A stretch of 64,000 bases of DNA. Origin: Azorinus chamasolen (taxonomy: Eukaryota; Mollusca; Bivalvia; Cardiida; Solecurtidae). Numbering within the stretch: position 1 is the first letter of the stretch; each line of letters opens with the position of its first letter. The notes under the pieces are model-generated. The model saw only the letters and a list, made by a program, of their open reading frames with translations. It was not told where the DNA came from and ran no database searches. This document shows positions 2,211 to 51,225 of the stretch, piece by piece. Position numbers and translations under genes: made by a program. The stretch is from NCBI GenBank assembly GCA_963576725.1, contig OY755237.1, positions 67,376,972 through 67,440,971 on the forward strand, given 5' to 3'.

Positions 2211-2275
2211 CAATATGGATCCAAATGAGACACCGAGTAACTCGGCGTCTCATCAGGTTCCACACTGCTTGACAC
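2211..2275. repeat. HP hairpin, GCCGAG-type tip
   Basis: GGATCCAAATGAGACACCGA and CTCGGCGTCTCATCAGGTTC form imperfect inverted arms around GTAA. This is the second large tip variant of the HP superfamily. Confidence 0.7.
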
Positions 2276-2510
2276 TTGAACAATACGTTCTCAAAAGTTT
2301 TATCTGATCGGAAGTAGTCAAACTTGTCTCAGATCCAAATTTTAAGCAGATATGTTTTTTTCAGAGGTGTAAGCGTCCAAGGAATGTTGATTCATAAAAT
2401 TTTGCTGAAAACGTACATTTTCTCCATAATTATGATTTACAAAACCTACACACGTACTGTAAAACCCGTGTAGCCCAAACGTTAAATTTAGTATAAATAT
2501 CGGTCTTGGA

Positions 2511-2608
2511 GACAGGTGGCAGCTTAATGCAGGGTGTACGTCATGCAAACAGCTCCCATATGAGCTTTCTGCATGACGTTAACCCTGCATTAAGCAGCCA
2601 CCTGCCTA
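2511..2608. repeat. DM palindrome
   Basis: GACAGGTGGCAGCTTAATGC and GCATTAAGCAGCCACCTGCC are inverted arms with GCAAACAGCTCCCATATGAG at the tip. The flanking right end ATTCCGGTTTAGAGGGGTT is a decayed DM/EM terminus. Confidence 0.7.
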
Positions 2609-2988
2609 AAAGTATCTAAGTTCTTCTTTATTAGAATTCCGGTTTAGAGGGGTTTGCCGCACTAGGGGTTTGCCGCAAAACTAATGTCGGCTCAAATCCG
2701 GCCCTGGTGCAATTTTGAATACTGCTCATTCGACCAATTTCTCGAGAAGATATTGACCGAGTGCCATTCTGCTTGGATCTGGATGAGATCTGGATGAGAT
2801 CTGGATCCAAGCTGTTTTCAAATGCGAATCAATGGTTAATAATTTCTATTCTGTAGATCGTAAAGCAAAATTGACCTGACACCTGGTTATAGATGACAGG
2901 AACTAAGAGGTACGAAAGGTAATCTGATGAATTGAGATTCTATTGCAAACAAGGCCTTATCTTGCAATCCGCGACCTGACTCGCATTT

Positions 2989-3050
2989 GCAAACAGCTTG
3001 GATCCAGATGAGACACCGAGTAACTCAGCGACTCATCAAGATCCAACTTG
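2989..3050. repeat. HP hairpin, GCCGAG-type tip
   Basis: GCAAACAGCTTGGATCCAGA begins the left arm and the tip is CACCGAGTAACTCAGCG. The right arm carries the shifted ATCAAG in place of ATCTGG. Confidence 0.7.
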
Positions 3051-3319
3051 ATTGATTCCCGGTCAATGGTTTCTCAAAAGCCGGTAATCAAAATTGCACC
3101 AGATCCAAATTTGAGCAAACATTTTTTTTTTCACAGCAGGCTAAATGTTAAAAACAGTCCTTATTAAGCATACTCCGAATCTTTCAATATCAAATATCTG
3201 ACAAAGCAGGTCGAAATCTTAACCCTTAACGCCTCTGTGAAAGAAAAAAAAGCTCAAATTGATCTGATGCCATCCTTTTAAGCTGCTTCAGATTCATACA
3301 GAAACTATTGACTGAATAT

Positions 3320-3384
3320 CAAACAGTTTTGATCCAGATGAGACGCCGAGTTACTCGGCGTCTCATCTGGATCAAAGCTGTTTG
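3320..3384. repeat. HP hairpin, GCCGAG-type tip, near perfect
   Basis: CAAACAGTTTTGATCCAGAT and ATCTGGATCAAAGCTGTTTG are nearly perfect inverted arms, with the tip GACGCCGAGTTACTCGGCGTC. This is one of the few copies without the usual stem mismatch. Confidence 0.8.
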
Positions 3385-3770
3385 CAAATACGAGACAGAT
3401 CGCTGTTAGGGATATAATGATTAATATATGTCTGTTTCTATTGTATTCCTTTTATCTGTCCATTAGACTACATGTATTAATTTGTTTAAGAAACAAGGTG
3501 TATAGATTATTATGATTTTTATCACATCGTGTATTATTTCGTCAAATTTACTACAACCATGCATCTTTTAGCTATTTTGATCTTTTGATTATATATTTTT
3601 CTCTGAATAAGGAATCAAAATCGAACGGTCATCAACGTTATTCGAATCAATAAATCTAGATCAAAACTATTTAAAGATATTTATACTCTGTGTAAAAGTG
3701 TGTACATTACACAATAAGGGTTACTCTGACCTGAAAGATTAATCAACTGTTGTATAATATCTTTAATAAT

Positions 3771-3967
3771 ACAGTCGAACCTATCTTAAGCGGTCAGCAA
3801 AAAAGAGTTATAATTAAGGATCTGAAAGTCAGGTGGTAGCTTAATGCAGGTCAAAAGTAGTGCAGAAGGTCTGCATTACTTTTGCCTTGTATTAAGAAAC
3901 CACCTGCTGTTTAAGACTCCCATGCATGTTCAGTAAATGAATGACCGCTTAGGACAGGTGTTACTGT
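3771..3967. mobile_element. DM element, nearly complete
   Basis: Ends ACAGTCGAACCTATCTTAAG and GGACAGGTGTTACTGTA surround a shortened palindrome with arms GTGGTAGCTTAATGCAGG and CATTACTTTTGCC. The tip is reduced to GCAGAAGGTCTGC. Confidence 0.7.
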
Positions 3968-4056
3968 ATCTACATCACCCTTTAGTCTGAGTGTTAACCA
4001 GTCACCATTTTAACCCTTAATATGTCGGTAGGGGCGTAACCGCTTTTACAATCACC

Positions 4057-4113
4057 TTGGATCCAGATGAGACGTCGAGTAACTCGGTGTCTCATCTGGA
4101 TCCAAGCTGTTTG
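4057..4113. repeat. HP hairpin, GCCGAG-type tip
   Basis: TTGGATCCAGATGAGACGTC and its partner TCTCATCTGGATCCAAGCTG form the arms, with GAGTAACTC in the tip. Confidence 0.75.
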
Positions 4114-4462
4114 ACACTCGGTCTGTAGTTTCTCAAAACCTTAGAACGTAATTAAACTTAAAATGTAATTAAACTTAAACGTAATTAAAACTTGCTTTAT
4201 ATTGAACAGTGTTTGAGCAGACATTTGTGTCGTTCGGCAGACAATCGTTAAATGACATTATATCAAAATAGGCTTAAATATTAAGTAATTTCTATGGGGA
4301 TCCACAGTGTTGAATTTAATTTTCTTAAAATTTTGCTGACGACACAATTAAGAAACAACTTTTTTTCCGTCAGACGACAAACTTGGTCATATCATAGTCT
4401 ACAGTCAATACTAGAAAAACCCTCTTCCTGCAGTGACCACTAAATAAATAAGCATAGGTGTG

Positions 4463-4926: not shown

Positions 4927-5409
4927 TTAACTCTTTACTCCATAAATACACTTTTCTACGCATTGCAAGCAGAGTAGACCCAGATCAGACGGTCCCTATT
5001 TGATCAGGGTCTGCTCTGTTTGCTTATAATGTAATATCTACAGTTTCTGCCATAGCAAACCGCCCTGTGCCCATACGCTATTAAAACAATTATCGTAATT
5101 AACCCTTCTCTTGCTGAATTGTAAAATACATTTCTCCTTCTTTACCCATGCCCTGTTCTATAATTATATATGTCTTCACTGTGTACAAGTATTTCGCTGT
5201 GCAATCACTGCTGTGAAGTGCACTGGTTGCACAATCAATCAATCAATCAACTGGTTGCAGACCCAGATGAGACAGCTCCTGCAGGAGCTGTCTCATCTGG
5301 GTCTTCACTATTTACAGGTAGGTATATTGACGTGAATAGCAAGCGAAGGGTTAATATTAATGACATCATTATTTATTTCATGAATAATATTCATGGTGTA
5401 AAGGATTAA
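4927..5409 (-). mobile_element. TM2 element containing a TM4 insertion
   Basis: TTAA 4927-4930 and 5406-5409 are the outer ends. The HP hairpin at 4964-5023 is asymmetric. Removing TM4 (5103-5350) restores CGTAA-TTAA-TATTAATGACATC, the usual TM2 sequence. Confidence 0.75.
5099..5354 (+). mobile_element. TM4 element with TTAA target duplication
   Basis: The sequence between TTAA 5099-5102 and 5351-5354 starts CCCTTCTCTTGCTGAATTG and ends AGCAAGCGAAGGG. It contains the perfect hairpin CAGACCCAGATGAGACAGCT/AGCTGTCTCATCTGGGTC (5258-5305) and an ATCA tetranucleotide run. A second copy is at 11203-11452. Confidence 0.8.
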
Positions 5410-5974: not shown

Positions 5975-6205
5975 TTAACCCATTACCCCATGGGCTATAT
6001 TTAGACCCAACCTCTTTGAATAAATCTACCGAAAAGGAGCATTTACTAGAGAAAAGGAAAATTTTAGAATTTTGTAGCTTGAAACCATTGTGACAAATAG
6101 AGCATTTGCTCCTATAGGAGCAAATGCTCTATTTATCACAATGGTTTCATAAAGTGACTTTTACAGAGGCGTATAGAAAGGCGTATTTATGGAGGAAAGG
6201 GTTAA
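5975..6205 (+). mobile_element. TM3 element, complete
   Basis: TTAA at both ends, CCCATTACCCCATGGGC at the left and GGAGGAAAGGG at the right. The central palindrome AGAGCATTTGCTCCTATAGG and its complement is perfect through TTGTGA.AAAT. Confidence 0.85.
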
Positions 6206-6817: not shown

Positions 6818-7064
6818 TTAATCTTTTACTTCATGAATAATCATGTAAGAAATAATGACGTCATGAATATTAGTTAGATCACTTTTTATAATAGCATACG
6901 ACATAATGGCTATGACAGAACTTGAAGACTTAGATCAACATGTATATAACATCGATAGCAAACAGAGCAGACCCTGATCAGACGGCTCCTACATGAGCCG
7001 TCTGATCTGGGTCTACTCTGTTTGCAAAGGCGTAGAAAAACGACTTTAATAAGAAAAGGGTTAA
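6818..7064 (+). mobile_element. TM2 element, complete
   Basis: TTAA 6818-6821 and 7061-7064 bracket the modules AAGAAATAATGACGTCATGA, ATGGCTATGACAGAA, an HP hairpin (6957-7026, tip GGCTCCTACATGAGCC) and AAAGGCGTAGAAAAACG. Confidence 0.8.
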
Positions 7065-9276: not shown

Positions 9277-9505
9277 TTAACCCTTTAGGTGCCAATTTTC
9301 TAATTGTCGTCTGCAATCCAAGTAAAATAAGGAAATGAGATAAATAAATGCAAATTTCAAAGGAATAAAGCACATATATAGAAATATTGATTGAGACAAA
9401 TAGTGTAGTCCCTGATCAGACGCCGCCTTTTCAAGGCGGCGTCTGATCTGGGACTGCACTATTTGTCGTGATGCATTTATGCGACTGCGGCGGTGAAAGG
9501 GTTAA
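9277..9505. mobile_element. TM5 element, complete
   Basis: TTAA 9277-9280 and 9502-9505, with CCCTTTAGGTGCCAATTTTC at the left and GACTGCGGCGGTGAAAGGG at the right. The HP hairpin (9394-9466) has the tip GCCGCCTTTTCAAGGCGGC. A second copy is at 14183-14448. Confidence 0.8.
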
Positions 9506-10917: not shown

Positions 10918-11202
10918 GACTTTAAGTAGAATTATTTCTATTTCATTACTTTTAAGAGACCTAATCAGACAGACAAACAGTTTGGCTTCTGATATGTCGC
11001 CGAGTTACAAGGTTACTGGATTCTGATATGTCGCCGAGTTACAACTGATTGCAAGTTTAATCATGGATCTGCCGACAGCAGTCTAAAGGTTAATTGGAAC
11101 GAAGGTTATGCAGAAAACACCCATAGGACCTTTCTGCGTCACATGATTGTAGTGTACTTTCGCTTTCAATTCAACAGCCAGCAGTTTTAACCCTTTGCCC
11201 TA

Positions 11203-11452
11203 TTAACCATTTTCTTGCTGAATTTTAAAATACATTTCTCCGTCTTTACCCATGCCCTGTTGTATAATCACATATATCTTCACTGTGTACAAGTATATCG
11301 CTGTGCAATCACTGCTGTGGAGTGCACTGGTTGCACAATCAACTTGTAAATTGTGCAGACCCTGATGAGTCAGCTCCTGTAGGATCTGTCTCATCTGGGT
11401 CTTCACTATTTACAGGTAGGTATATTGACGTGAATAGCAAGCGAAGAGTTAA
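11203..11452 (+). mobile_element. TM4 element, second copy
   Basis: TTAA at both ends. Nearly co-linear with 5099-5354, including CACTGCTGTGGAGTGCACTG and the hairpin at 11357-11405, which is imperfect here (GATGAGTCAGCTCCTGTAGG). Confidence 0.8.
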
Positions 11453-13265: not shown

Positions 13266-13331
13266 ATCATGATCCGCTCTGTCACTTACCAGTATCAGTT
13301 GTATTAATCATTTGAATTACAAAACGAATGT

Positions 13332-13393
13332 GCAAACAGTTTGGATCCAGATGAGACGCCGAGTAACTCGGCGTCTCATCAGGGTCCAAACTA
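13332..13393. repeat. HP hairpin, GCCGAG-type tip
   Basis: GCAAACAGTTTGGATCCAGA on the left and ATCAGGGTCCAAACTAGTT on the right, with the perfect tip GACGCCGAGTAACTCGGCGTC. The stem carries the characteristic CCAGAT/ATCAGG mismatch. Confidence 0.85.
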
Positions 13394-13638
13394 GTTATTA
13401 CTGTAACTGTTTTTTGAAACAACGATGAAGAAAAATAAAAACATATGAAAATTGTAGCAGATGAAAAAATGCAGACGACAACATTTGGCAGCGAAAAAAT
13501 TAAATGCTAATGAGTCATATCCACCCTATTACATATTCAGCATAACTATGCAAACAGTGTAGATACTGGTCACATATAGTGTGTCGTACATACTGTTTTC
13601 TAACATCGGCCTAAAGCATGAACAGTTTCAGCGGTTCC

Positions 13639-13888
13639 TTAACCCTTTCCCTCATATAAACATGTTTTCACGCATTTGCAATCAGAGTAGACCCAGATCA
13701 GACGGCTCCTAGAGGAGCCGTCTGATCAGAGTCTACTCTGTTTGCTAATAGAATTTGATAGATCCGTTTCTCTACTTTCTAAAATGGCTTCAATATTCCA
13801 CCTACCATATTTCATTATATCTATGTTGTCCATGAATATTCAGTAGGTATTGAAATTTGGACTAAATATCGAACAGGGAAAGGGTTAA
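13639..13888 (-). mobile_element. TM1 element, complete
   Basis: TTAA 13639-13642 and 13885-13888. Modules are CCCTTTCCCTCATATAAACA, HP (13678-13746, tip GGCTCCTAGAGGAGCC), TTTCTACTTTCTAAAATGGC, TATTTCATTATATCTATG and GAATATTCAGTAGGTATTGA. Confidence 0.9.
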
Positions 13889-14182: not shown

Positions 14183-14448
14183 TTAACTCTTTTGGCGCCA
14201 AATTTAAAAGCGTCGTCTAAGTTATATCTAATATGCAATAATAATTTCATATTAGATATAATTCTAAACTAAATAATAAAGGAATATTAGTAAAACATTT
14301 GTGTTTAAAAACCTGTATGCTTGAGCTAAAATAATACAGAAAACAGTGAAGTCCCAGGTCAGATGACGCCTTGAAAAGGCGGCATCTGACCTGGAACTGC
14401 ACTGTTTTCAATCGTGCCAACAGGCGACATTGGTGCCGAAAGAGTTAA
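14183..14448. mobile_element. TM5 element, second copy
   Basis: TTAACTCTTTTGGCGCC at the left and GGTGCCGAAAGAGTTAA at the right. The HP (14335-14412) has the tip GACGCCTTGAAAAGGCGGC and a perfect lower stem. Its right TTAA (14445-14448) is shared with the next TM3. Confidence 0.75.
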
Positions 14449-14744: not shown

Positions 14745-15187
14745 AAAGGGTCAGCCATTTTCAAGATATAAACATCTTTGCACGCCTTTGCAAACAGAGT
14801 TGACCCAGACGGCTTTCTGTAGGAGCTGTCTGATCAGGGTCTACTCTGTTTGCTTATGAAACTATACCGGATCCAACCGATACCAAACATTCCTCTGTAA
14901 ATGCAGTAAAACCGCTCTATAACGGCCACAAAATTGTGTTAATTAGTTGGTATTTAGGCAGGTGGCTGCTTAAAGCAAGATGAAAGTAAAACAGAACGCT
15001 CCTATAGGATCGTTCTGTTTTACTTTCATCTTGCTTTAAGCAGCCACCTGCCTTTAACACAAACTATTTGATGTAATTAAGTGGCCGTTATAGAGAGGTT
15101 TTACTGTACGTCATTATAAAAAGGCAGGTAATAAATATTCATGATGCCATTAGTTTTTACATGAATATTAAACAGGGAAAGGGTTAA
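14745..15187 (-). mobile_element. TM2-type element containing an EM element
   Basis: HP at 14786-14852 and the TM2 right end AATATTAAACAGGGAAAGGG-TTAA (15184-15187) are separated by EM (14904-15106). Confidence 0.65.
14904..15106. mobile_element. EM element, complete
   Basis: CAGTAAAACCGCTCTATAAC and TTATAGAGAGGTTTTACTG ends. The arms are inverted over nearly the full length, with the tip GAACGCTCCTATAGGATCGT. TA follows the right end; the left flank is TG. Confidence 0.85.
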
Positions 15188-21769: not shown

Positions 21770-22155
21770 AACATTAATGCAAAACAAAAGTAACGTAGAA
21801 AACTCTTATAGGAGCCTTCTGCATGATTTTCGTTCTTCATTAACCCTTTCCCTCATATAAACGTGTTTTCACGCATTTGCAAACAGAGTAGACCCAGATC
21901 AGACGGCTCCTAGAGGAGCCGTCTGATCAGGGTCTACTCTGTTTGCTAATAGAATTTGAAAGATTTGTGTCTTTACTTTCTAAAATGCCTACAATGCTCC
22001 ACCTTCAATATTTCTCTCTAACTATTTTGGCCATGAATATTCAGTAGGTATTGAAATCTGGGCTAAATTTAGAACGGGGAAAGGGTTAAGGAACCACAAG
22101 CACCATAGACTCCCATTTTAATTCCCAAGTGACTGCTCTATGAGGTTCTACTGTG
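21770..22155. mobile_element. DM element interrupted by TM1
   Basis: DM sequence (GAACATTAATGCAAAACAAA, CTTATAGGAGCCTTCTGC) is cut at its TTAA and resumes after TM1 as TTAAGGAACCACAAGCACC, ending GAGGTTCTACTGTG. Confidence 0.65.
21840..22088 (-). mobile_element. TM1 element nested in DM, TTAA duplication
   Basis: TTAA 21840-21843 and 22085-22088. Very similar to 13639-13888 and 43831-44080. The HP at 21878-21946 has the tip GGCTCCTAGAGGAGCC. Confidence 0.85.
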
Positions 22156-23234: not shown

Positions 23235-23470
23235 AAGCCCATTTACTCTATAAATATACCTTTTTAACACTATTGCAAACAGAGTAGACCCAGATCAGAG
23301 GGCTCTTGTAAGAGCCCTCTGATCAGGGTCTCCTCTTTTTGCTTATGAATTTAGTTTCTGCCATGGCAAAAAATCTAGTGTTAACATGCCATTTTTAAAA
23401 ATTCATCTAATTAATATTCATGATTTTTTTTAAAAAAATTTACGTGAATATTCATAGAGTAAAGGGTTAA
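23235..23470 (-). mobile_element. TM2 element downstream of cyclin D
   Basis: Reverse TM2: CCCATTTACTCTATAAATAT, HP at 23275-23342 (tip GGGCTCTTGTAAGAGCCC), TTTCTGCCATGGCAAAA, and CATAGAGTAAAGGG-TTAA at 23467-23470. Confidence 0.75.
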
Positions 23471-24077: not shown

Positions 24078-27000
24078 CTGAAACAAAACAAGTTTTTTTA
24101 TTATATATGCACTATGAATTTTATGCACATTAACCCTTTCCTCCATAAATACGCCTTTCTACGCCTCTGTAAAAGTCACTTCTTAAAACCATTGTGATAA
24201 ATAGAGCATTTGCTCCTATAGGAGCAAATGCTCTATTTATCACAATGGTTTCAGACTACCAAATTTTAAAATTTTCCTTTTCTCTAGTTAATGCTCCTTT
24301 TCGGTAGATTAATTCAAAGAGGTGGGGTCTAAAAATAGCCTATGGAGGAAAGGATTAAGATCGGGAAAGGAAACCATGAAAATGATGAGTCCACGCCATA
24401 GTACCAAACAGGGAGAGATTGGCCAGGTGCTGTTACATGTTTATATCCGGACAGGTTTATGATCCCTTATCCCTTTACAACACCCAGAAATTAGGGCCCC
24501 ACATTGTAACAACTTTTGCAAACAGTATGGATCCAGATCAAATATTTTTATTAATGGAGTATAGCAGTTCTATTTGAAGAAAAAAAAAAGAAAAGCAAAT
24601 AAAAATTTAAGTTTATATGCAGCTTAAAGGTCTTTTGATAGGCATGATCTTTCACAGGTCCCAGACTGGACAGGGTCTGTTAACAGATTTTTCATGGTCC
24701 CTCATGTTTCTAGCCAGATATTTCAACTACCAGCCACAAGTGCCAATCTTTATTATGGTCAATTTATGTCGGTTAATTAGGGATAATTGCGTTTTCATTA
24801 AATGACACACATGTTGGTCAGGCTATGTTTCGATCAGCACATGCCCAAGTCTGTGCTGTATATCTTTTCCAAGAGTCTGATAAATCCAGTAGATTGTCAC
24901 TATGTGATAGGATAATGTTGAGGAATTGATAACCCATGTAAATATTAAATTTCTTTATTTTTCCATCAAACCCCATTTTGAGACCAGAAGAAAAAACAAC
25001 AAACAAACTTACCATATCAATGCCTGTGATTTGATGTAATTTCTGTAACAGTTTTAAGTGGAAGTACGGACAAGCGTTGTTAAGACCATTGGTTGCAGCA
25101 CCCACACTTCCTGCAGCTATCATAGAGGGTGGGTACATCATGAACTTGCAATCTGAAAAACATAATCAGAATCAAACCATTAAAACTTTGCTGTCAGAAA
25201 AAAAACTACATTTCAATTTAATTCAGTAGTTGTCTGATTTGGGTCTACTCTGTTTGCTACTAGGCATCAAAAGACTTCACTATCACAGAAAGGAAGTTGT
25301 ATAATATCCTGGGCACATATGGCACCAATAAAATAATCCCCATAGTGTACAGCCTGAGCCAGTGGGAGATTTGTTCCATAATACCCAAGCCCCTACTGAC
25401 CTCTTATCAGTCCATATGACACTAGGGGTTGTGGAAATAATACTGGTGTCAGATCTGGCTTGGATTAAGTCTTTGCACTAAACACTGTCTTTGTGATAAC
25501 CTATGATCCTATGCCAATAGTTTTGATCCAGATCATGTCAAACAATGGAGCCTCAACAGCACGACACTGTTTAACGCTCCAATTGTAGTCTTGAAAATAA
25601 AATTAAATGGTGAAAAATGAAGCAGACCATCATATTTTGCAGATTTCTTTTCTCTAGCCTGCTAAAGGTAAATCAAAACTTGGTAGATAGTACAAATACA
25701 GTGAGTGGATGAATACAAGTGTCAGAGGGACCTCTATTGACCAATCCAGACTTTGTGTAACAGAGATAAAAGGAAGAAAAAACTTAATCCTAAATCCTTA
25801 CGCAACTGTCTAAAAATGTCTGCTTAACTTAGACTTCTTCTGATATTGATAAAGATTTTGAGAAACTATTGATCAAACGTCAAACAGCTTTATCCTGATG
25901 AGACGCTGAGTTACTTGGCGTCTCATCTGGATCCAAACTGTTGCACATGCGAGTTTGGTCACAATAGCAGGATAAGTGGGTAACAAATTGTTTATCTCCG
26001 CCTACACTATCTACTTATCATATGTATGAGTAAGAATGTCTATCTGTTCCATAGGCCCACAAAGTTGTCAGTCATAAATGAAAAAGATTAAACATGACAC
26101 CCACATATCAATGATGAACCCTTTCAATATTCCTTACTTTTCTAAGCCTGAAATCATAACCCTTTAAACTCAAATCTCTTTAATTTCTTTCCAAAAACTG
26201 ACACGAGTGTCAAACAGACTGGATCCTGATGAGACATCAAATTAGTCACCCTCTGTGATATATACCAATGAGATTTATGAGGTCAAAGGTAAATGATTGC
26301 TCTCTTTTGATATTCAGACTTAAATGTCTTGAGACTATAATCTTGTGGATTAAACTTAAATATCTTGAACTGCACAGTTGAAGTGACCATGAACGAATAC
26401 TTTTAAACCTGGGACATATCATGAAAACTTATTTCAAGTCACATTTCACATAAAAAATGTTTTTTAAGATGAATCGCTTGCGTCATAAGTGGCTATAAAA
26501 ACTGTTATCTGCTTAATAATTTGTAACATATTTTGTACTACATTTTTCAAAAACATGTACATCAATTTGAAAATCATAGTTTAGATACCATAGAAGCTTT
26601 CTGCATAACTTTCATCCTGCATTAACCCATTCCCTCATATTGACGACTTTTGACGACTCTGTAAAAGTCACTTTGTGAAACCATTGTGATTAATAGAGCA
26701 TTTGCTCCTATAGGAGCAAATGCTCTATTTATCACAATGGTTTCAAACTACAAAATTCTAAAATTGTCCTTTTCTCTAGTTAATGCTCCTTTTCGGTAGA
26801 TTTATTCAAAGAGGTAGTATCTAAAAATAGTCTATGAGGTAATGGGTTAAGCAGTCACCTGCCAAAAAATACCTAAATTGTTCTTTAATTAAAATTCCTG
26901 TTTAGAAGTTTTACTGTATTCAAGTATCTGAATACAGCATAAATTTTCTTTCTTTAATTTTACATTTATCAACCCTCCCCATTAATGTCACCAGGTCACC

Positions 27001-33000: not shown

Positions 33001-36000
33001 CAAGCAGTCAGGAGACTTTTAACCTGGGTCTACACGCAAAACTACGCTAACCCATTATACTGTTTTTATACTGTAATGAGTTTGTCTAGTGTTGAATAGA
33101 TCCATCATTCCCGTGCTAATAGTTTTCAAAATGAAAGTTATTCAGCAAAAACAACACCACCAAAATCTATTGAGCATTTACTGAATTCCATTTGCTTTCA
33201 CAGGTTAACAACCATAACCATGGAGCGCTGCATGTACCAATGTTATTACTGCTATATGAAACACAATGCATTACCCGATAACATCGATCATCTAGTTGAA
33301 GCACACGATTCTGTATGTTTAAAGTATAGAGAACTAGAACTGGGCGAATCATCTGGTGCTTTGGGGTATAGGACCAAAACATACGAACACATTATACCTA
33401 CATGTATTGATGGTGATGTGTTTGTGTCGTCCGATAACCGTGTTGGTATTTTCAAGGACAGTGACGGCAGAAAAAGAGGCATAGCCAAATCAATTTCATA
33501 ATGTAGATATAACACCTTGTCTTCGAAGAAACAAACCAATGCGTCAAGTATTAGATCTAGCTCGATTTAAACTGTCTGAATAACAAAAATACTTGGAAAA
33601 GTGTAACGATGAAGATGTTTGCGAGGACGAATCGAGTGTTTATTAATGATTTCACATAGGAGATTTGCAAAACATTCTTCAATATGTGCATTTTCTAGTA
33701 ACGGAAAGGACCCTTTTCTAGAAAAAGCAATTCCGTTTGCATAAACGGGTCGATTATTTGGGCTTTAAAAGTAATTCACCCATACATACTCAAAATGAGT
33801 CGTGTATATATACAAATCTGATACCGTGTTTGCATTGAGAATAGTTTAAGTAAATCAATAACCGTCCTTACAATAGAGTTAAATACATTTATACATGTTG
33901 ATAGCTCACCTAATTGTAAAATCATATAGGTGAACTTACGTTGTTGAATGTTGTCTTTGTACAAACTCGATTCACACGTTAGAAATAATAATTGTTGTGA
34001 ACATAATTGGCTAAATACAATTTACAGAATATACATGATAATTGTGGGTCTTATGTTTCAAGTTCAAGGGAAAACATACGACGTGTGTGTGTCTTCAGGT
34101 GCTGCAACACTGCATTTGTTAGTTGTCGGGTAACCTTAGCCTAAATGATCCCAGATTTAGGGTGAACCTTAACCACCAAATTTTCAAATTTGGGTAACCT
34201 TAGCCATTCGAGCATCAACTCAGTACACGAAAACACGTGTAACTACCTGAATTTTGAACGAAGCAAGATGATAGTCAAAGAAAAGACAGAAAAATACTTC
34301 GATTTACCTTCGACATCGTTGGATTAACGTGAGTTTGTCATATATCGGAGATATTCAGTCCCAAAAAAGGAAAATGGTGTTTTGGCATATTGATACACGT
34401 TGATTCACTGATTTAATACACCATTCTGCATGCTATTGGGAAAATATTACACCAACATGTTCGGCAAACACTGCTTTTTACGGCTGCATACAAAGAAGTG
34501 TCGATCTTCTGAAAATAGGAGTCTTTAGGAGCAAAATACAAACTCGCCGTTTTAATCGACTCTCGCTGCCCGAGGTAACCACAGCTTTATCGTTGGGGTA
34601 ACCATAATCGATTGGACGGTGTGATATATAACTCTACTTTTTTCTGATAAAACAATTAGCCCACAGCAAGACTGTTAGTGGGATTCCTAAATTCATAACA
34701 TTTTTGGAAAATTAGTCAATTTGACCAATATTTCAGGCTTAAATCTCAATTTTCCACGCAGTCCTCACTCCTTAGACTAGTACATTGCATTCTCCTAATT
34801 GCGCAATCTGAATCCGCCGGATGTGTGTATCAGCTGTTTAACTGTGGTTTGCAGTCAAGTACAGCCACTATTTGAGCGGAGATAAAACCTAGCAATCTAC
34901 TTAAATCACTAATCAGTTTAGAGCTGATTTCAGAGGCAATGGCGGACCTCTTGGATAACGAGATTTAGCCCTCCTGAATTTCCTTGCAAAAATCGGCAAA
35001 ACTAGGTGATTTAGTGCAGAACATATGACACGTTTGACGTCACTTAATGTGTTAACGTCACAATTCTACACTCATCAACCTTTGTCAGCTGAAAATCAGC
35101 TGGGACAAACTACATGTATACTCAACGTCAAAAAATAAGAGTAACAGAAATTTACCATCAGCATTGATAACGTTATTGAGTGGTCTGTATATATCACTAA
35201 TTTCTCCGCCGATATCGGATTTGTCTCTTTTAACTTTGATGCGATGAACATACACGCTGCTCCTAATAACTGAAGTCGAGTCCGAGGAATATCACAAACT
35301 GATAGAAATCTATCCAAATAGTTCATTGCCAAAGGAAAAACCTCCTCTTCACACCTCTGTTCATCACAGACCTGAAAATGAAAGCAAGCAATAAGTAAAA
35401 AAAAAATCCAGTATCGATTTTTATTTCAATCAAATTAATCATAAAACGCTTGTTGAAATCTACTTTCGTATTTGAAATAAATACGAGTATACAAAGAAAA
35501 TTAAACGCAATTAGTTAAGACGCTTTGTGTCATGCTTTGTAATTAATAAATTTTGCTGAATAAGTCACTTTCATCACGCGGTTGATATAAAGTTATTTTA
35601 TTGGTTGATTTATCATTGCCGGAGCTAATATACACAAGATTCGCTCCACGGCGTAATATCAGCCACCGTATGCAACTATGAAACTTTACAATTGATTCGC
35701 ACATACATATGTGGAATATTCATTAAAATTCACATTTTCACCAAAATCACTAAAAAAGCCGATTTTGATCTGCAAAAATGTCTTTTCTAATTATCCTACA
35801 AAAAGATAATCATTTGCATCTGCTGTTTTCTCAGAAAGTTTGTTTAATCGTGAAATTTCACCATATTTCCATCAATTTCATACAGTAAAAGGCCGCCTAT
35901 GAAAATTTAAGAAAATAATCAATTTTCATTTGTCAACCATAATATTTATACTATTTAGAAATTTAAAGTCTTGACTCGCTGATGAATACTTCAATTTATA

Positions 36001-36517
36001 TCTATCGCCACTAGTAATCATGTAATATCATTTCATATTACACTATGTCAGTCCTAATGCTCATCGCTCTCTCCCGCCATCTTGATTTTCAACGTTTTTG
36101 CCTCAGACACGACACAAAGAAACACTAATAAAAATAAATGCTAAAAAATCCATTTTAAGTCCGATTTCTTTTCAAATTACATTATTTGGAAGATAAAGCA
36201 TTTCTTTTCCTTATGAAACAACTGTCATATGAAAAAAATGAAGATTTCATCGAAAAATTTGTAACATTCCAATGCATATGTCAGAGATATATCCAAGTCA
36301 GTGAATGAGCGTAACTTTTTACCTCAAGCATCCATTGCGCTACCATCCTTCGCATGTAACGTTTAATGTCCGTTTGAACACATTTGAAATATGCAGGATT
36401 TGGCTGATATCTGTCTTCAAGTGCCAGTAAATTTTGCAACACTCTATTGTCATGTATTAATACAGGATCCTCATAAGCCCTACGTGGGGCGTCCGCCTCA
36501 ACGCACATTAAATCCAT
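23895..36517 (-). CDS. CCND: Cyclin D (G1/S-specific D-type cyclin), five coding exons
   Basis: Spliced CDS = 36517-36323, 35371-35156, 31137-30975, 25152-25013, 24077-23895: 897 nt, 298 aa plus TAG, close to vertebrate cyclin D1 (295 aa). D-type cyclins activate CDK4/6, which phosphorylate Rb in the nucleus to allow S-phase entry. Visible hallmarks are an LxCxE Rb-binding motif (LMCVE, residues 3-7), the cyclin-box run [11 protein letters not shown] (55-65), [10 protein letters not shown] (80-89), the CDK-contact region SKLKET (110-115), KLKW/TPHDF in exon 3, [20 protein letters not shown] in exon 4, and a C-terminal [10 protein letters not shown] degron whose first Thr (289) matches the GSK3-type Thr286 site of cyclin D1. 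All introns are GT-AG and every junction keeps frame. The start is the first ATG after an in-frame stop at 36590-36592. There is a His-rich linker before the degron. No other coding gene in the window is comparably certain. Confidence 0.96.
24130..24358 (-). mobile_element. TM3 element in cyclin D intron 4
   Basis: TTAA 24130-24133 and 24355-24358 bracket a full TM3. Its palindrome (about 24187-24253) is perfect: AAACCATTGTGATAAATAGA, GCATTTGCTCCTATAGGAGC. Its near end is only about 53 bp upstream of the exon 5 boundary. Confidence 0.9.
25013..25152 (-). CDS. CCND: Cyclin D coding exon 4
   Basis: This exon is 140 nt. It begins AT TGC AAG after the acceptor TTTTTCAG and ends GATATG before the donor GTAAGT (25012). 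It encodes [20 protein letters not shown] and on to HQITGIDM, matching the C-terminal cyclin fold of D-type cyclins. It returns the frame to phase 0. Confidence 0.94.
25881..25942. repeat. HP hairpin, GCCGAG-type tip, in intron 3
   Basis: CAAACAGCTTTATCCTGATG and CATCTGGATCCAAACTGTTG are the arms, with the tip GACGCTGAGTTACTTGGCGTC. Confidence 0.75.
26586..26925. mobile_element. DM element (left-truncated) interrupted by TM3
   Basis: GAAGCTTTCTGCATAACTTT and CATCCTGCA stop at TTAA and resume after TM3 as GCAGTCACCTGCC, continuing to GTTTAGAAGTTTTACTGTA. The left palindrome arm is missing. Confidence 0.75.
26622..26850 (-). mobile_element. TM3 element with TTAA target duplication, in intron 3
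   Basis: TTAA 26622-26625 and 26847-26850. Removing 26626-26850 rebuilds CCTGCA-TTAA-GCAG, the normal DM arm. The palindrome around GCATTTGCTCCTATAGGAGC is intact. Confidence 0.9.
27788..27858. repeat. HP hairpin, solo copy, intron 3
   Basis: AAACAGTGCAGACCCTGATC and GATTTGGGTCTATAATGTTT are the arms. The tip ATGGTTATTCTAGGAGCCCT is decayed. Confidence 0.6.
29932..29998. repeat. HP hairpin, solo copy, intron 3
   Basis: GCAAGTAGTGCAGATCCAGA and TGATCAGGATCTTCACTATT are the arms, with the tip CTCCTTCAGGATCAG. Confidence 0.6.
30975..31137 (-). CDS. CCND: Cyclin D coding exon 3
   Basis: This exon is 163 nt and ends in phase 1. The acceptor is TTTTGCAG (CAG 31140-31138) and the donor is GTAAAAC starting at 30974. 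It encodes [20 protein letters not shown] onward to [11 protein letters not shown], spanning the end of the first and start of the second cyclin fold. The split codon is completed by exon 4 to give Asp192. Confidence 0.95.
31245..31325. repeat. Family-I palindrome in intron 2
   Basis: CACCAAACCCTATGCTGTGA and GGTCACAACATTGGGTTTGT are the arms, with the tip ACTCTTTAGAAT. A TM2 right end (GCGTCTGCTCTGTTTGG... AAAAGGG-TTAA) follows to 31394. Confidence 0.6.
32125..34623 (+). mobile_element. DNA transposon with about 680 bp terminal inverted repeats
   Basis: Left arm 32125-~32800 and right arm ~33945-34623 are inverted copies with small indels and substitutions. Both start CACACCGTCCAATCGATT at the outer edge. 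A candidate 5 bp target duplication, ATATA, flanks the element (32120-32124 and 34624-34628), though it is low-complexity. The 1.1 kb interior carries one short C2H2-type ORF and no recognisable transposase, so the copy is probably non-autonomous. Long TIRs recall Mutator-like or other long-TIR families, but the superfamily is not assignable here. It sits in cyclin D intron 2, on the strand opposite to the gene. Confidence 0.85.
33220..33501 (+). CDS. Small C2H2-type protein or transposon ORF fragment, 93 aa
   Basis: The ATG is in a good context (ACCATGG) and the ORF ends TAA. Residues 8-29 read C-x2-C-x12-H-x4-H (C8, C11, H24, H29), a single C2H2-like zinc finger, followed by a conserved-looking LKYRELEL...LGYRTKTY stretch. 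It lies in the interior of the long-TIR transposon, and a 3'-splice-site-like tract ending TTTCACAG lies just upstream (~33203), so it may be the second exon of a longer transposon protein. No catalytic motif is seen. A DNA-binding N-terminus of a lost transposase is possible. The function is unknown. Confidence 0.5.
   Translation: MERCMYQCYYCYMKHNALPDNIDHLVEAHDSVCLKYRELELGESSGALGYRTKTYEHIIPTCIDGDVFVSSDNRVGIFKDSDGRKRGIAKSIS
35156..35371 (-). CDS. CCND: Cyclin D coding exon 2
   Basis: This exon is 216 nt (72 codons), which as far as I recall equals vertebrate CCND1 exon 2. The acceptor CAG is at 35374-35372 and the donor GTAAAT starts at 35155. It begins [20 protein letters not shown] and ends ITLSMLM, aligning without gaps to the human exon 2/3 boundary. 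It carries the cyclin-box core and the CDK-contact lysines. Confidence 0.95.
36323..36517 (-). CDS. CCND: Cyclin D coding exon 1
   Basis: This exon encodes 65 residues, with ATG at 36517-36515 and phase 0 at the donor (GTAAAA, GT at 36322-36321). It carries the Rb-binding LMCVE motif and the start of the cyclin box, ending MLE. The frame is open further upstream to 36590 but has no ATG there, only a TTG at 36562. Confidence 0.95.
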
Positions 36518-36559
36518 ACTGCAGAGAGCTCGAACTGTCCTGTAATTTTCACGTTTGTC

Positions 36560-36860
36560 CAAATAAATAAATCCAGGACAAAATCGTGATCAGGTTTTTC
36601 TTGAGTAAATCGCACTGAGGTAGATCGTTTGGTCGGTTAGACAAACGGGTGAATTGTGTCGATTTAGCTGTTCACCATACGTCTGACCTTTCCGACGTTC
36701 ACCGACCAACAAATTTTACTTTGCAAAGTTCTATTGAAGTAGTTATATAGACCCAGTTAAACCGCACAACTGCGCATGCGCCAACGCCTCGGAGCTATGA
36801 CAGTTAGGGAGAATTAACAACGGCCAGCAGCACGAAATAACGGATTTTAGTGTGGAAACA
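36560..36860 (-). promoter_or_regulatory. Cyclin D upstream region
   Basis: This is unique, non-repetitive sequence directly 5' of the cyclin D start and is the likely 5' UTR and promoter. It contains a palindromic NRF-1-type site at 36771-36782 in a short CpG-richer patch. No TATA box is evident close to the site. The transcription start cannot be fixed from sequence alone. Confidence 0.45.
36771..36782. promoter_or_regulatory. NRF-1-like palindromic site
   Basis: TGCGCATGCGCC matches the NRF-1 consensus (YGCGCAYGCGCR). It lies about 255 bp upstream of the cyclin D ATG, in a usual position for a CpG promoter element. Binding is inferred, not shown. Confidence 0.5.
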
Positions 36861-38217
36861 GTGTTTATCAATAATTTTATACTTACCCGAGTTTATAAAA
36901 TGCATTTTAAATGTATAACACATATTTTGGTCGAGAGAAACTGACAATGCAACAAGAAATTCAACTTCCTTTAGTTTTTAGGACCGCCCACCTTATGAAT
37001 ATATTCATGATTAGTTAGTAAAACACCTTGCAAGGAGTTTGCAAGAGATTGGGGTAGGGAAAACATTAAAATGCTAAATGAATTCGAGACCAGCACTTGC
37101 CATAAAATATTATTCACGTTTTAAAATAATTTTGCAATGGTGCATATAGGATTTTACTGTTGCAATTTTATTATTAAATAATGTATTACTTTGCAACATA
37201 ATTGGAGGGAAAAGTCAGCTTACATGTATAGATCATTGAAAGAAAAAAATAAACATAAATAATCAAGGCTGTATGAAAAATGCTGCTGAAGCATATACGA
37301 TCTAGAAAATTTTCTTGATGCTTTTTCTTTCATTACTCGTAATATTTTGTGATGTTTTTGGCATTTATAAGCTTTCAATAAGCGCCCTGGTTTTGCTCTT
37401 ATTTATAGTTTTCGATGAAAAGTAGGTCAAAATTGGCTTCGACCAATCAGACTGCCGTATCTCTGTGGCCTAGTCAGCGATAAAGTATGAATGAAAAGAG
37501 AGTTTGCATTTACTATAAATGCGTGCGGTCGCCGCCGTTTCAACATGGGACCCCTGCGGTAGGCCCACCCCTAAATTTTGTCTGACAGGGAGCGCGCAGG
37601 CCCCGATAGGTTCGGATAGGCCAGTGTCTGCGCACTATTTGAAGGCGTGGCTTGATCCCCTGATCGAGGTTAGCTACTCTCTTGTCCCAGTTTTCCTTTA
37701 ACCCATGACATGCAGAGTAAATGAAACTGGCTCTTCCTTTTCTTAATATTAATTTAAAGAAATATTGTATCAAACTTTTCACTGCAGAAAATTCTTTTTT
37801 ATGATCAACAGTTTAGATCCTCATCAAGGGACTCGCTCAGTGACCCTTTGATCTGGGTCTACACTTATTGTAAATACCTTTATAGACTCGGTTTCCGCAC
37901 TTTAAGGGTTAAAATCCCTTTGTAAGAACCTTAGAGGAAAACTAGTGTACTTTCTCAATCTGCAAATAGTCTACACCTTAATCAGAGAACTTATACAATA
38001 TATTTCTGATAGGTGTCTACACTGTTTTTCATGCGATACCTTCTCGCAAATAACACCCTTTTATACTACATGGACTTCGTTAGATGAACAATGATGGACT
38101 ATTCCATTTGAATAAATCAGCGTTTAAAGGGTTATTGAGCTGTACGGAGATACCCCCAAATAAATATTATAGGACATCCAAGCACACAAAAGAGACAATC
38201 GAGTTACCTTATTCGTG
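36861..38217. other. Mostly unique sequence upstream of cyclin D
   Basis: AT-rich unique DNA with a small CpG-richer island at 37520-37690 and two weak HP-like remnants (37795-37870 and 37965-38030). No gene was recognised. The short open frame across the island has no recognisable domain. Confidence 0.4.
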
Positions 38218-38454
38218 TTAACCCTTTCCCTGTTCTATGTTTGTTCAAAATTTCATTACCTGCTGAATATTCATGATCAAAATAGGTATAATGAAATATG
38301 GAACGTGGGGCATTAATTGTAGCCATTTTAGAAAGTAAAGAAACAGATCTATTGAATTCCATTAGCAAACAGAGCAGACCCTGAGCATAGGAGCCGTCTG
38401 ATCTGGGTCTACTCTGTTTGCAGGTGTGTGAAAAGGTGTTTATATAAGGGTTAA
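38218..38454 (+). mobile_element. TM1 element
   Basis: TTAACCCTTTCCCTGTTCTA, TATAATGAAATATGGAACGT, then HP (38364-38423) missing part of its left tip, and AAAAGGTGTTTATATAAGGG-TTAA. The right TTAA is shared with the next TM2. Confidence 0.8.
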
Positions 38455-42018: not shown

Positions 42019-42248
42019 TTAACCCTTTCCTCCATAAATACGCATTTCTACGCCTCTGTAAAAGTCACCTGTTGAAACCATTGTGATAATAGAGCATTTG
42101 CTCCTATAGGAGCAAGTGCTCTATTTATTACAATGGTTTCAAGCTACAAAATTCTAAAATATGATCCTTTTCACTAGTAAATGCTCCTTTTTGGTAGATT
42201 TATTCAAAGAGGTTGGATCTAAAAATAGCCTATGAGGGAATGGGTTAA
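42019..42248 (-). mobile_element. TM3 element, complete
   Basis: TTAA 42019-42022 and 42245-42248. CCCTTTCCTCCATAAATACG at the left, GCCTATGAGGGAATGGG at the right, and the palindrome GCATTTGCTCCTATAGGAGC in the centre. Confidence 0.85.
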
Positions 42249-43830: not shown

Positions 43831-44080
43831 TTAACCCTTCCCCTCATATAAACGCGTTTTCACGCATTTGCAAACAGAGTAGACCCAGATCAGACGGCTC
43901 CTAGAGGAGCCGTCTGATCAGGGTCTACTCTGTTTGCTAATGGAATTTGATAGATGTGTTTCTTTAGTTTCTAAAATGGCTACAATGTTCTATCTTACAT
44001 ATTTCATTATAACTATTTTGTCCATGAATATTCTGTAGGTATTGAAATTTGGACTAAATATAGAACAGGGAAAGGGTTAA
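43831..44080 (-). mobile_element. TM1 element, complete
   Basis: TTAA 43831-43834 and 44077-44080. The HP (43869-43936) has arms broken only by the standard mismatch, with the tip GGCTCCTAGAGGAGCC. A TM2 right end (to TTAA 44147-44150) follows directly. Confidence 0.9.
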
Positions 44081-47018: not shown

Positions 47019-47248
47019 TTAACCCATTACCTCATAGGCTATTTTTAGATGCAACTTCTTTGAATAGATCTATCAAAAAAGGAGCATTAACTAGAGAAAA
47101 GGACAATTTCAGAATTTTGTAGTTTGAAACCATTGTAATAAATAGAGCATTTGCTCCTATAGGAGCAAATGCTCTATTTATCACAATGGTTTCACAAAGT
47201 GACTTTAACAAAGTCGTCAAAAGTCGTCTATATCAGGGAATGGGTTAA
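47019..47248 (+). mobile_element. TM3 element, complete
   Basis: TTAA 47019-47022 and 47245-47248, CCCATTACCTCATAGGC at the left, TATCAGGGAATGGG at the right and the intact palindrome GCATTTGCTCCTATAGGAGC. Confidence 0.88.
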
Positions 47249-48849: not shown

Positions 48850-48909
48850 TTTTACATTTCGTGTACAAATCACGACGATAGTTTGGGTTCTGATTAGTTA
48901 CTCGGTGTT

Positions 48910-49160
48910 TTACTCCTTTTCGCCATAGATATTCATGTAAGAAATAATGACGTCATGAATATCAATTAGATTAATTTCTTTAATAGCACACGGGCACGGG
49001 ATGTTTTCTCCATGGCAGAAACAGTAGAACCATATCTATTTTATATCATAAAAGAACGGAGCAGACCCTGATCAGACGGCTCCTATAGGAACCGTCTGAT
49101 CTGGGTCTTCTCTGTTTGCAAATGCGTATAGAAAGGCGTATTTATGGAGTAAAGGCTTAC
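48910..49160 (+). mobile_element. TM2 element
   Basis: TTTTACTCCTTTTCGCCATA, AAGAAATAATGACGTCATGA, HP 49053-49120 (tip GGCTCCTATAGGAACC) and GAAAGGCGTATTTATGGAGT. Confidence 0.75.
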
Positions 49161-49209
49161 AATTTGTTAGACTGTGAAGTGTATATATATGACAGTGTCC
49201 CAGAGTTTA

Positions 49210-49360
49210 GGGTTAACTGATAACATCATGAATATTAATTAATTTTATTATAAAGGCATATAAAAGGGGGACTTTTTGGCTATGACAGAAACTGTAGAAT
49301 CAGTCCTATATCACGTCAAAAGCAAACTCAACAGACCCCGCAGGAGCCGCATTGTCTTGA
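49210..49360 (+). mobile_element. TM2 fragment
   Basis: GGGTTAACTGATAACATCAT, GACAGAAACTGTAGAATCAG, then a broken HP (AGCAAACTCAACAGACCCCG, CAGGAGCCGC). Confidence 0.55.
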
Positions 49361-49392
49361 ACTACATGTACTTTGTTTCCACAACGAGAAAA

Positions 49393-49630
49393 GTTCACCC
49401 TTTCCTCCATGATTATTCATGTAAGAACTAATGACGTCACGAATACAGTTTAGATTAGTTTGTTATAATAGCACATCTTTGGCCAGCGGAGAAATTGTAG
49501 AATCATATCTATTTTATAACATAAGCTGACAGAGTAGACCCTGATCAGACGGCTCCTACAGGAGCCGTCTGATCTGGGTCTACTCTGTTTGCAAATGCGT
49601 GAACACATGTTTATATGAAGGAAGAGTTAA
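49393..49630 (+). mobile_element. Chimeric TM2(left)/TM1(right) element
   Basis: The left half is TM2 (CCTTTCCTCCATGATTATTC, GACGTCACGAATACAG). The HP (49526-49593) has the tip GGCTCCTACAGGAGCC and the standard mismatch. The right half is TM1 (GCGTGAACACATGTTTATAT, GAAGGAAGAG-TTAA). It is reciprocal to 10469-10630. Confidence 0.7.
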
Positions 49631-49925
49631 GAGGGAAGAGCTTAACCCACCTGTTTTCATATCTGCACAAGTAAGAGATAGGCAAACAAGGGCTCGTCAT
49701 TAGAACGATTGACTTCCGGCGTGAGGGCTGACGGGTTCTTCAAGAATCTTGATAATACATGCAGATTTAAATACACTTTAATATTACTATAATCACCATT
49801 CACATCCTGTGAAATATATGTAACAAAGAATGAAACTCTTCCTCATGCATAGAAATTTGAAAGCAGCTTTTTGCAAAACGTTTTGTATTAGCGATTAAGC
49901 TCACAAGAACGCATTTTGATGCCGT

Positions 49926-50085
49926 TGCAAACAGAGTAGACCCAGATCAGACGGCTCCTATAGGAGCCATCTGATCAGGATTTGCGAATTTTCCCATGTT
50001 CGTATGCCACAATAAAATTTCAGCTAATTAATGTTCATGACGTCATTCTGTCTTATAAATATTAATGAGGCAAAGGGTTCAGACC
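49926..50085 (-). mobile_element. TM2 fragment with HP
   Basis: GCAAACAGAGTAGACCCAGA, the tip GGCTCCTATAGGAGCC and ATCTGATCAGGATTTGCG, then ATTTCAGCTAATTAATGTTC. The lower right arm is truncated. Confidence 0.6.
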
Positions 50086-50472
50086 CCTGCATTCCTCTAA
50101 GTTTATTTACTAGACGTTCGCTTTGAAGATTTTTTTTACTGTATAAGTAATGCAACTCATTTCGTGAAAAAGCACAAATTTAGTCTAAAGATTCCGTTAT
50201 ATCATGCTTTAACAAGAGACGAATGACAAAGGCAATCTATTAGCAACCCGATGCGTCCCACGTGTCATGCAGCCCATGCTTACAAAGAGCCTATTGCAAC
50301 AAGAAAAGGTGTAAATTAGTTTTAAGAAAATTAATATTCGTTGTCATGCGAACGACAAAGAATGGCGAAAAATTAGCAATACCGATATTACTTATTCATA
50401 AGTTTTTATATGCAATGTGATCTCAGGATGAAACGTGGTAAATCATTTCAGTGCGGGAAACGAGTCACTTAT

Positions 50473-50548
50473 GTCATTTGCAAACAGTGCAGATCCAGAT
50501 GAGAGGGCTTCTAGAGGAGCCCTCTCATCAGGGTCTTCACTAGTTGTC
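50473..50548. repeat. HP hairpin, solo copy
   Basis: TTTGCAAACAGTGCAGATCC on the left and ATCAGGGTCTTCACTAGTTG on the right, with the perfect tip GAGGGCTTCTAGAGGAGCCC (one G/T pair). Confidence 0.75.
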
Positions 50549-50785
50549 ATGTGACACTTTTTTAAAGAATAAACCCCCGAAAATTCACGGAAAGCTGGAC
50601 CTATTAGAATTTTGGAACAGTAAATTTGAAAATTTAGCGTTGAATGTGCTAAATGATGATCATGTTTACATCAATTAATTCTTCTTTGATATTGTATTAC
50701 ATCACACTATTTCAAGTAGGGCATGCGTTAGACACGCGCCCTATGAAACGGTAACCGAAACACGACCCTTCCATATTAATAGATA

Positions 50786-51225
50786 TTAACCGCTTACTCA
50801 ATAAATAATTAAATATTCACGAAGGAAATGATGACATCATGAATATTGATTAGATTGATTTTTAAAATGGCATATTAACATGAATTCTATGCCAAAACAG
50901 AATCTGGAGAATCAGGGTCTATGCTTATTAAGCTTTTAAGTTGAGTCTGAGTTCGTTCTCAAGCTTTTGATTGGTTAGATTTGAGTTCTCAAGCTTTTGA
51001 TTGGTCAGATTTGAGCCAAAGGCTCAAATCTGACCAATCAAAAACTTGAGAATGAACTCAGACTCAACTAACAGTTTTATAAGCATGGACCCAGATCTAC
51101 ATGCATATTATTTCATAAGCAAACAAAGCGGACCCTGATCAGATGGCTCTTATAGGAACCGCCTGAACAGGGTCTACACTGTTTGCAAATGCGCAGAAAG
51201 TCGTATTTACGGAGTAAACAGTTAA
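50786..51225 (+). mobile_element. TM2 element containing an FM element
   Basis: TTAA 50786-50789 and 51222-51225. TM2 modules GATGACATCATGAATATTGA and HP (51118-51187) are separated by FM 50913-51094. Confidence 0.75.
50913..51094. mobile_element. FM element nested in TM2
   Basis: CAGGGTCTATGCTTATTAAG and TTTTATAAGCATGGACCCAG are the ends. The left arm has the two tandem TTCTCAAGCTTTTGATTGGT units also seen at 48668. Flanking AT on both sides. Confidence 0.85.

Follow-up and report, generated by a model that had tools for sequence, protein, structure and literature searches.

The nearest precedent found for the elements reported here is the CMITE group of Acropora corals. In its published account this group has TTAA duplications, mostly CCCTTT ends, several families and a piggyBac-like link, and its internal region is conserved better between families than the ends are, with the role left open by the authors (PMC2872659). 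The same account gives a terminal CC[C/T]T motif as a criterion of piggyBac-type miniature inverted-repeat transposable elements. For piggyBac itself, a minimal left end of 35 bp (LE35) was described, with a palindrome at bp 17-33 that is bound by cysteine-rich domains (PMC7351741), and the subterminal DNA of piggyBat was described as restraining activity (PMC11707139). In the present work, a stretch of 64,000 nucleotides from Azorinus chamasolen (the window; G000:C3:67376972-67440971 of a 1.72-Gb, 137-contig assembly; 36% GC across the window) was evaluated, in which mini-transposons with TTAA ends carry long hairpins of one family, called A, whose paired sites covary strongly. The A hairpins are likely, at a probability of roughly 0.6, to be a structural cis-module of piggyBac-type mini-transposons that is kept paired by selection among source elements.

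A simple scan of the window returned 58 non-overlapping hairpins, an AT repeat and unrelated ones among them. According to their arms, the main hairpins were sorted into A (TTTGCAAACAGAGTAGACCCAGATCAGAC-tip), B (GGTGGCTGCTTAATGCAGGGTGAAAGTCATGCAGAA-tip), C (TGAAACCATTGTGATAAATAGAGCATTT-tip) and D (GTTCTCAAGCTTTTGATTGGTCAGATTTGAGCC). Family A is the hairpin superfamily of a preliminary description of this DNA, which had reported common lower arms with variable but still paired tips. The shared lower arms were real and occurred on a larger scale than stated there: a 32-bp A core had 191,543 matches genome-wide at three mismatches or fewer (control 0). The GATGAGAC..GTCTCATC form had 86,458 genome matches (control 16). 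A sequence-only nhmmer profile (E-values up to 0.05) gave 86 A-family matches in the window, 58 of which were near full length. In a 200-kb sample, drawn from the five largest contigs at regular rather than random positions, the matches numbered 209 for A (151 near full length), 69 for B and 36 for C. Extrapolated from this sample, A has about 1.8 million matches genome-wide, about 1.3 million of them near full length. The pair tests used the near-full copies only (58/86 window matches and 151/209 sample matches). When eight copies, six of A and one each of B and C, were folded as DNA, the z-scores against shuffles were -4.5 to -17. Pattern scans of collections of genome contigs and viral contigs gave 0 outside relatives of A. 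A looser scan met two loci with a 31-base match lacking the long arms, which were dropped.

The pairing partners of A covaried well above the null, as the preliminary description had proposed to check: the value was 0.233 on 57 distinct A rows, whereas shuffles reached 0.123 and slid partners 0.044-0.060. The covariation was strong and mostly ancestral, common variants being mostly paired and rare ones mostly unpaired. Relative to the consensus of group A1, the changed lower-arm pairs were compensated in 5/5 cases for T2 (ten copies), 3/3 for T3 (two copies), 3/4 for T4 (two copies) and 3/5 for the copy pair at 19980 and 29929; for the whole stem outside the loop pair, T2 was compensated at 9/9. 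In seven single copies, by contrast, 8 of 35 changed lower-arm pairs were compensated. In the window, the paired cells were 3/38 for bases seen in one copy and 212/427 for bases seen in five or more copies (p 2e-7 by cell, the cells being non-independent; by state 3/38 versus 23/49, p 1e-4). For A (209 near-full copies, window and sample), 4/134 states found in at most 19 copies were paired, versus 22/34 of those found in at least 20; for B (71 copies), the values were 6/185 in at most 12 copies and 20/22 in at least 13. None of the 95 changed bases of C (44 copies) was paired, a count made after B or C matches that scored better as the other family had been removed; a first count in the window (12 rows, row 11794 being a B copy) had given 2/23. 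At site 27/52 of the A model, exact counts in 264 kb with C or G on each side were C:G 25, G:C 13, and mixed 1 and 0. With full flanks the site was paired in 38/39 copies, and with any letter and one free flanking base in 52/61, the rest being mostly T:G (5).

Four pairs from this strongly covarying site, one mismatch was kept. At model site 23/56, A faced A in 42 of the 56 window copies that have a letter at both positions and in 160/209 rows overall; each of the 12 groups compared included one or more such copies. Among 40 exact copies in 264 kb (either strand), 33 had A·A and 7 had the site paired. Moreover, T2 kept the A·A despite five re-paired lower-arm pairs and a replaced tip. The copying of a whole arm would erase this mismatch. 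Hence, the paired differences probably arose pair by pair, or in patches that stopped short of 23/56, and their carriers were then amplified. The preliminary description had offered selection on the folded form or a copying mechanism. Selection on the fold was retained and could be placed at the level of source elements, because the group consensuses were compensated and the single copies mostly were not. Copying as a general cause was not upheld, given the unpaired changes of C and the retained A·A. Selection for pairing in the source elements is therefore favoured over routine arm copying, because common variants were mostly paired, rare variants were mostly unpaired and the A·A was kept.

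Tips and arms were combined in both directions. Related arms carried differing tips, namely GGCTCC in A1, GCCGAG in T2, GCCGCC in T3 and AGCTCC in T4, and GCCGCA tips were also present elsewhere in the genome. The arms of these four groups were alike beyond chance (p 0.0005-0.0135, 2,000 shuffles). Conversely, the tip GCTCCnnnnGGAGC (GCTCC-nnnn-GGAGC) was common to A, B and C hairpins, the arms of B and C being without clear similarity to A1 (A1-B1 p 0.44, A1-B2 p 0.71, A1-C p 0.10). These arms were treated as unrelated, with the caveat that two of the 28 comparisons, C-T3 (p 0.008) and C-B2 (p 0.0055), were weakly low. A homology of the A and B arms, suggestive in a by-eye alignment, was unsupported by the shuffle test. 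All GCTCCnnnnGGAGC motifs fell at A, B or C hairpins, 23 in the window (list read by hand) and 58 in the 200-kb sample. The chance that two independent palindromes agree at five half-site bases is about 1 in 1,000, so an accidental sharing of GCTCCnnnnGGAGC is unlikely, with the caveat that the motif was noticed after the fact. Seven window types (A1, T2, T3, T4, B1, C and D) had a GC-rich clamp (4-6/6) and a short, mostly AT-rich loop; the clamp of a CTTCAC family in the sample was 3/6 GC. The five tips quoted in the preliminary description were all located at or beside the positions given. The tip at 23275 (GGGCTCTTGTAAGAGCCC) looks less like a separate founder than like a GGCTCC-class variant. 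That tip resembles the histone-type 3' stem-loop, a reading that was rejected: the bulk tip is unlike it, and nothing was found in Rfam.

Many A hairpins and the C hairpins lay inside TTAA elements of about 215-270 bp that started with CCCTT or CCCAT. The number of three TTAA elements given in the preliminary description was too low, A hairpins occurring behind at least five TTAA end types in the window. TTAA occurred at both ends of the complete copies listed below for the TTAA1, TTAA2, CGCC-tip, AGCTCC-tip, TTAA6 and C families; many other copies lacked one recognisable end. The terminal CC[C/T]T motif was found as TTAACCCT in copies of TTAA1, TTAA2, CGCC-tip, AGCTCC-tip and TTAA6. The C ends were CCCT or CCCA, and the terminal motif was mutated in some copies. 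The B ends were CAGTARAACC, with TA preceding the end in 6/10 exact matches, two of which (22153 and 49022) were probably not B; family B is taken by us to be pogo/Tigger-like. The elements and hairpins are given below by position in the window.

13639..13888, plus strand: complete TTAA1 mini-element, hairpin 13678-13745, TTAACCCTTTCC..GGGAAAGGGTTAA
21840..22089, plus strand: complete TTAA1 mini-element, hairpin 21879-21946, folding at -38.1 kcal/mol as DNA
43831..44080, plus strand: complete TTAA1 mini-element
38218..38454, minus strand: TTAA1 mini-element with an 11-base deletion in the hairpin
6818..7064, minus strand: TTAA2 mini-element, hairpin 6958-7025
9277..9505, minus strand: TTAA element with a CGCC-type tip (9394 in the preliminary description)
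14183..14448, minus strand: TTAA element with a CGCC-type tip, far end GGCGCC, hairpin end GGCACC
5099..5354, minus strand: TTAA element with an AGCTCC tip (5258 in the preliminary description)
11187..11452, minus strand: another copy of the AGCTCC-tip element, its far end placed approximately
37698..37912, minus strand: TTAA6 element with a decayed hairpin at 37807-37875
13329..13395, plus strand: T2 hairpin with a CGAG tip (13332 in the preliminary description)
2201, 2984, 3320, 4045, 10333, 16157, 25881, 30321 and 41355: more T2 copies
23273..23342, plus strand: A hairpin with a GGGCTCTTGTAAGAGCCC tip
49925..49990, plus strand: A hairpin with a GGCTCCTATAGGAGCC tip (49929 in the preliminary description)
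50475..50546, plus strand: A hairpin with arm GATGAGAG and tip GGGCTTC, no TTAA in the 60 bp upstream
26622..26850, plus strand: C element with TTAA ends, different arms and the same GCTCCTATAGGAGC tip
24130..24358, plus strand: C element, hairpin-side end in agreement with a TTAA2 end at 35/36
5975..6205, minus strand: C element
47019..47248, minus strand: C element
42019..42248, plus strand: C element
59790..59990, minus strand: C element in which a central deletion removed the hairpin tip, arms still paired
14904..15106, no strand assigned: B element, a palindromic mini-element of putative pogo type whose tip is of the same kind
51450..51655, no strand assigned: B element

The hairpin was close to one end of the element only. 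In the one-sidedness count, for which 206 of 209 copies were used, TTAACCC-like DNA lay within 65 bp on the 5' side of 72/143 GCTCC-class copies and on the 3' side of 9/143, and 7.6% of random 65-mers contained such DNA. For the CGCC class, the values were 6/7 on the 5' side and 1/7 on the 3' side. The distance from the first T of TTAA to the hairpin start was 39 bp in 54/103 candidate ends and 38-40 bp in 68/103; a distance of 39 bp from TTAA corresponds to 35 bp inside the element. When ends with exact TTAACCC were grouped at 55% identity, 13 clusters were obtained, eight of which (three single-copy) had a modal spacing of 38-40; the modal spacings of the remaining five were 41, 44, 73, 91 and 97. 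The 3'-side control had 1/4 clusters at 38-40. Copies too near a stretch end were excluded from the spacing and end-cluster counts. Where a TTAA end was found, most hairpins had the 39-bp spacing, even next to terminal sequences with little in common except TTAACCC. CGAG tips were found behind three different end clusters, and one C copy had 35/36 terminal bases in common with a TTAA2 copy and the same tip, with unlike arms.

Between TTAA1 and TTAA2, the hairpin was the best conserved part, the consensus identity being 66/68 for the hairpin, 32/39 for the terminal part and 99/136 for the interior. Within TTAA2 (11 of 15 copies used), private changes were as frequent in the hairpin as in the interior (0.072 versus 0.080, p 0.55), and shared variants were fewer in the hairpin (0.069 versus 0.124, p 7e-5). 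Within TTAA1 (7 copies), shared variants did not differ for the hairpin (p 0.33).

A possible autonomous partner was sought among the piggyBac transposases. The transposase domain PF13843 had 110 genome matches, counted by piece and thus representing fewer elements, and several of them lay in intact frames of 500-695 amino acids. One of the three loci fetched, L033, held a clean element that spans 1019-4116, carries TTAACCCTTTCGGCGCCA at each end and encodes a transposase of 623 amino acids (PF13843, E-value 9.8e-92); the other two, L031 and L032, had transposase domains, but no clean end pair could be set for them. The non-hairpin end of the element at 9277-9505 agreed with the L033 left end at 23/25. 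The element at 14183-14448 has the far-end GGCGCC too, but its alignment scores to L033 were lower (14-17.5). An end shared with an autonomous DDE_Tnp_1_7 element was shown for the family of 9277-9505 only, and not for TTAA1, TTAA2 or C. By eye, GCGCCA occurs twice near each end of L033 (1019-1080 and 4041-4116), and a CGAG..CTCG palindrome follows the GCGCCA repeats at the right end only, an asymmetry reminiscent of piggyBac and piggyBat. Judged from this one autonomous copy, a mini-element seems to consist of a 35-bp end unit for transposase binding and, where the parent has its next subterminal repeat, the hairpin. On the same single copy, the hairpin may replace a subterminal site, lift a restraint or bind a host factor.

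In the proposed explanation, the module would sit directly behind a family-specific 35-bp terminal unit at one element end. Elements with paired arms would be amplified, successive sources would exchange base pairs and entire tips in a compensated manner, and after insertion most copies would decay under little visible constraint. The shape is most likely what is read, because the letters vary while pairing, position and orientation stay. This shape would be either a hairpin or cruciform of DNA, with a GC-rich clamp and an AT-rich loop, or else a symmetrically bent site, and it may help to assemble or asymmetrise the transposition complex. The module would thereby raise transposition and act as DNA. 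Several results weigh against this explanation. Private changes in TTAA1 were rarer in the hairpin as well (0.034 versus 0.069, p 0.009), which counts against strict neutrality after insertion. The CGAG-tip copies had a TTAACCC-like end in only 5/26 cases on the 5' side and 2/26 on the 3' side. The C hairpins stood at another spacing, 54 (15/27), and B has the same tip, yet it is not a TTAA element. In L033, the 300 bp next to each end contained no hairpin scoring 9 or higher; therefore, its own transposase seems not to need one. Finally, A changes seen in 1-9 of 209 copies were paired in 43/403 cells, compared with 12.8 in shuffles, and this excess may reflect small subfamilies or some copying.

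The last result also speaks for a rival in which paired changes need no selection and appear in a single step, one arm being rewritten on the model of the other by template switching or quasipalindrome correction at replication. This process is documented, as far as the cited account is used here (PMC8794818), and the tips changed blockwise with new length between A1, T2 and T3, which is what a copying step confined to the tip may leave. As a cause of the whole pattern it is nevertheless judged unlikely: the lower-arm changes are scattered pairs, no changed base of C was paired, and the A·A persists beside a site that is paired in nearly all exact copies. A further rival is plain inheritance, in which founders that were palindromic by chance spread with related elements and by exchange, and pairing was never selected. 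The modular assortment of ends, arms and tips, such as the CGAG tips behind three end clusters and the C copy with a TTAA2 end but not TTAA2 arms, would be expected from it. This account has a low probability, since, the loop pair aside, every difference between T2 and A1 is a compensated pair while decaying single copies are mostly uncompensated, and since the spacing outlasted the turnover of terminal sequences.

Selection could also act on an RNA hairpin, as a small-RNA precursor or a transcript structure. Stems of 30 bp or more could be Dicer substrates, and the T·G at site 16/63, the commonest A1 state there, would be a wobble on one strand. This rival is regarded as very improbable. One-sided changes to G·T were not clearly in excess of those to A·C (71 versus 63 in A1, 19 versus 14 in T2), so that the strand-specific G·U tolerance of a structured RNA was not seen in either group. 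A role as DNA is favoured because of this lack of G·T bias, because no Rfam family reached its gathering score within the window and because the module is tied, at a preferred distance, to a DNA transposon end. A broader form of the preferred cis-module explanation is put forward tentatively and is itself doubtful. In this form, the hairpin would be an amplification module that is portable and tied to no single transposase; mini-elements of several piggyBac families and, via the tip, even a pogo-like family would have acquired it at a fixed place, and its fold would be read by a shared, probably host, factor. If so, compensatory selection in DNA would act strongly on a structural cis-signal, as on an RNA helix but in transposition.

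Other palindromes accompanied these hairpins. Family D comprises long palindromes within TCCATGCTTATAAAGC-like flanks, at 13134, 42883, 48740 and 50986 of the window and in the sampled loci L013, L016, L024 and L029; one D palindrome sits within a TTAA2 element near 51119. The genome sample held more palindrome families with arms CACCAAACCCTATGTTGTGACC.. and TTGGTGCAAAACTATTG.. (L011:7399, L015:3197, L025:3985, L027:5420 and others), and the CACCAAACCCTATGTTGTGACC.. family has constant arms with at least two paired tips, as in A. Among the 44 C copies, 10 lacked one base of the TATA loop (in the tip string) and 4 lacked the entire tip. Palindrome loops seem to be deletion hot spots, and central deletions that shorten the tip and leave the arms paired do exist, for example at 59895.

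The window also contains exons of a cyclin D-like gene on the minus strand (24821-36589; D type by eye), with PF00134 at 36284-36589 and 35099-35425 and PF02984 at 24821-25165; some hairpin elements lie between these exons. A DIRS-type retroelement at 53648-57875 has open frames for a reverse transcriptase and for a protein resembling tyrosine recombinases (PF00589 just below the cut-off). Among the 120 matches listed for its reverse transcriptase, the named animal ones were from Mercenaria and Mytilus, and proteins from Thiodiazotropha and Sedimenticola metagenome-assembled genomes were also included. A 162-bp tandem repeat of about six copies occupies 62974-63952. Outside the window, the sampled locus L023 (G000:C4:5000000-5009999) held a cluster of long reading frames with a virus-like look.

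If the cis-module explanation is true, natural copies of a covarying DNA helix, 10^5 to 10^6 in number, are available in this genome at a defined distance from the end of a transposon, and the use of folded DNA by eukaryotic mini-transposons for moving becomes directly testable. It would bear on why some mini-transposons become so numerous although they lack the sequence of their autonomous parent, and selection and template switching in palindrome evolution could be apportioned. It would also illustrate that compensatory change alone is no proof of RNA.

The statement in the preliminary description that no family built this way had been described was too strong, because the coral CMITEs (PMC2872659) and mitochondrial hairpin elements (PMC2800124), as far as their accounts were drawn on, have parallels. 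Literature searches by wording met no title or abstract opening that named this hairpin, and the matches to searches with arm 14-mers and short words were not on transposons by title and abstract opening. Kolobok and KolobokP also make TTAA duplications, and KolobokP is abundant in bivalves in the account used (PMC9587614); this candidate was rejected because Kolobok needs 5'-RR..YY-3' termini according to the same source, and the elements here start 5'-CC. In the description consulted for sponge mitochondrial DNA, hairpin-forming elements are dispersed and two types differ by a few complementary substitutions, as is the case here; unlike the present hairpins, they lie in organelle DNA, with conserved stems, variable loops and no transposon ends in that description (PMC2800124). 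The piggyBac and piggyBat ends share the TTAA target, the asymmetry and subterminal palindromes placed at defined distances from the tip in the accounts drawn on (PMC7351741, PMC11707139), and the 35-bp terminal unit here has the size of the piggyBac minimal left end (PMC7351741). Their palindromes are 14-19 bp long and are described as bound as duplex by the cysteine-rich domains of their own transposase (PMC7351741, PMC11707139), whereas the long hairpin here begins after bp 35 and is common to families with different ends. The CMITEs are about 100 bp long, and a term search of the main text met no hairpin, stem-loop, palindrome, loop or compensatory change (PMC2872659). By eye, their printed 60-bp core has only a short inverted repeat (PMC2872659), whereas the elements of the present window carry a 68-bp covarying hairpin at a preferred spacing.

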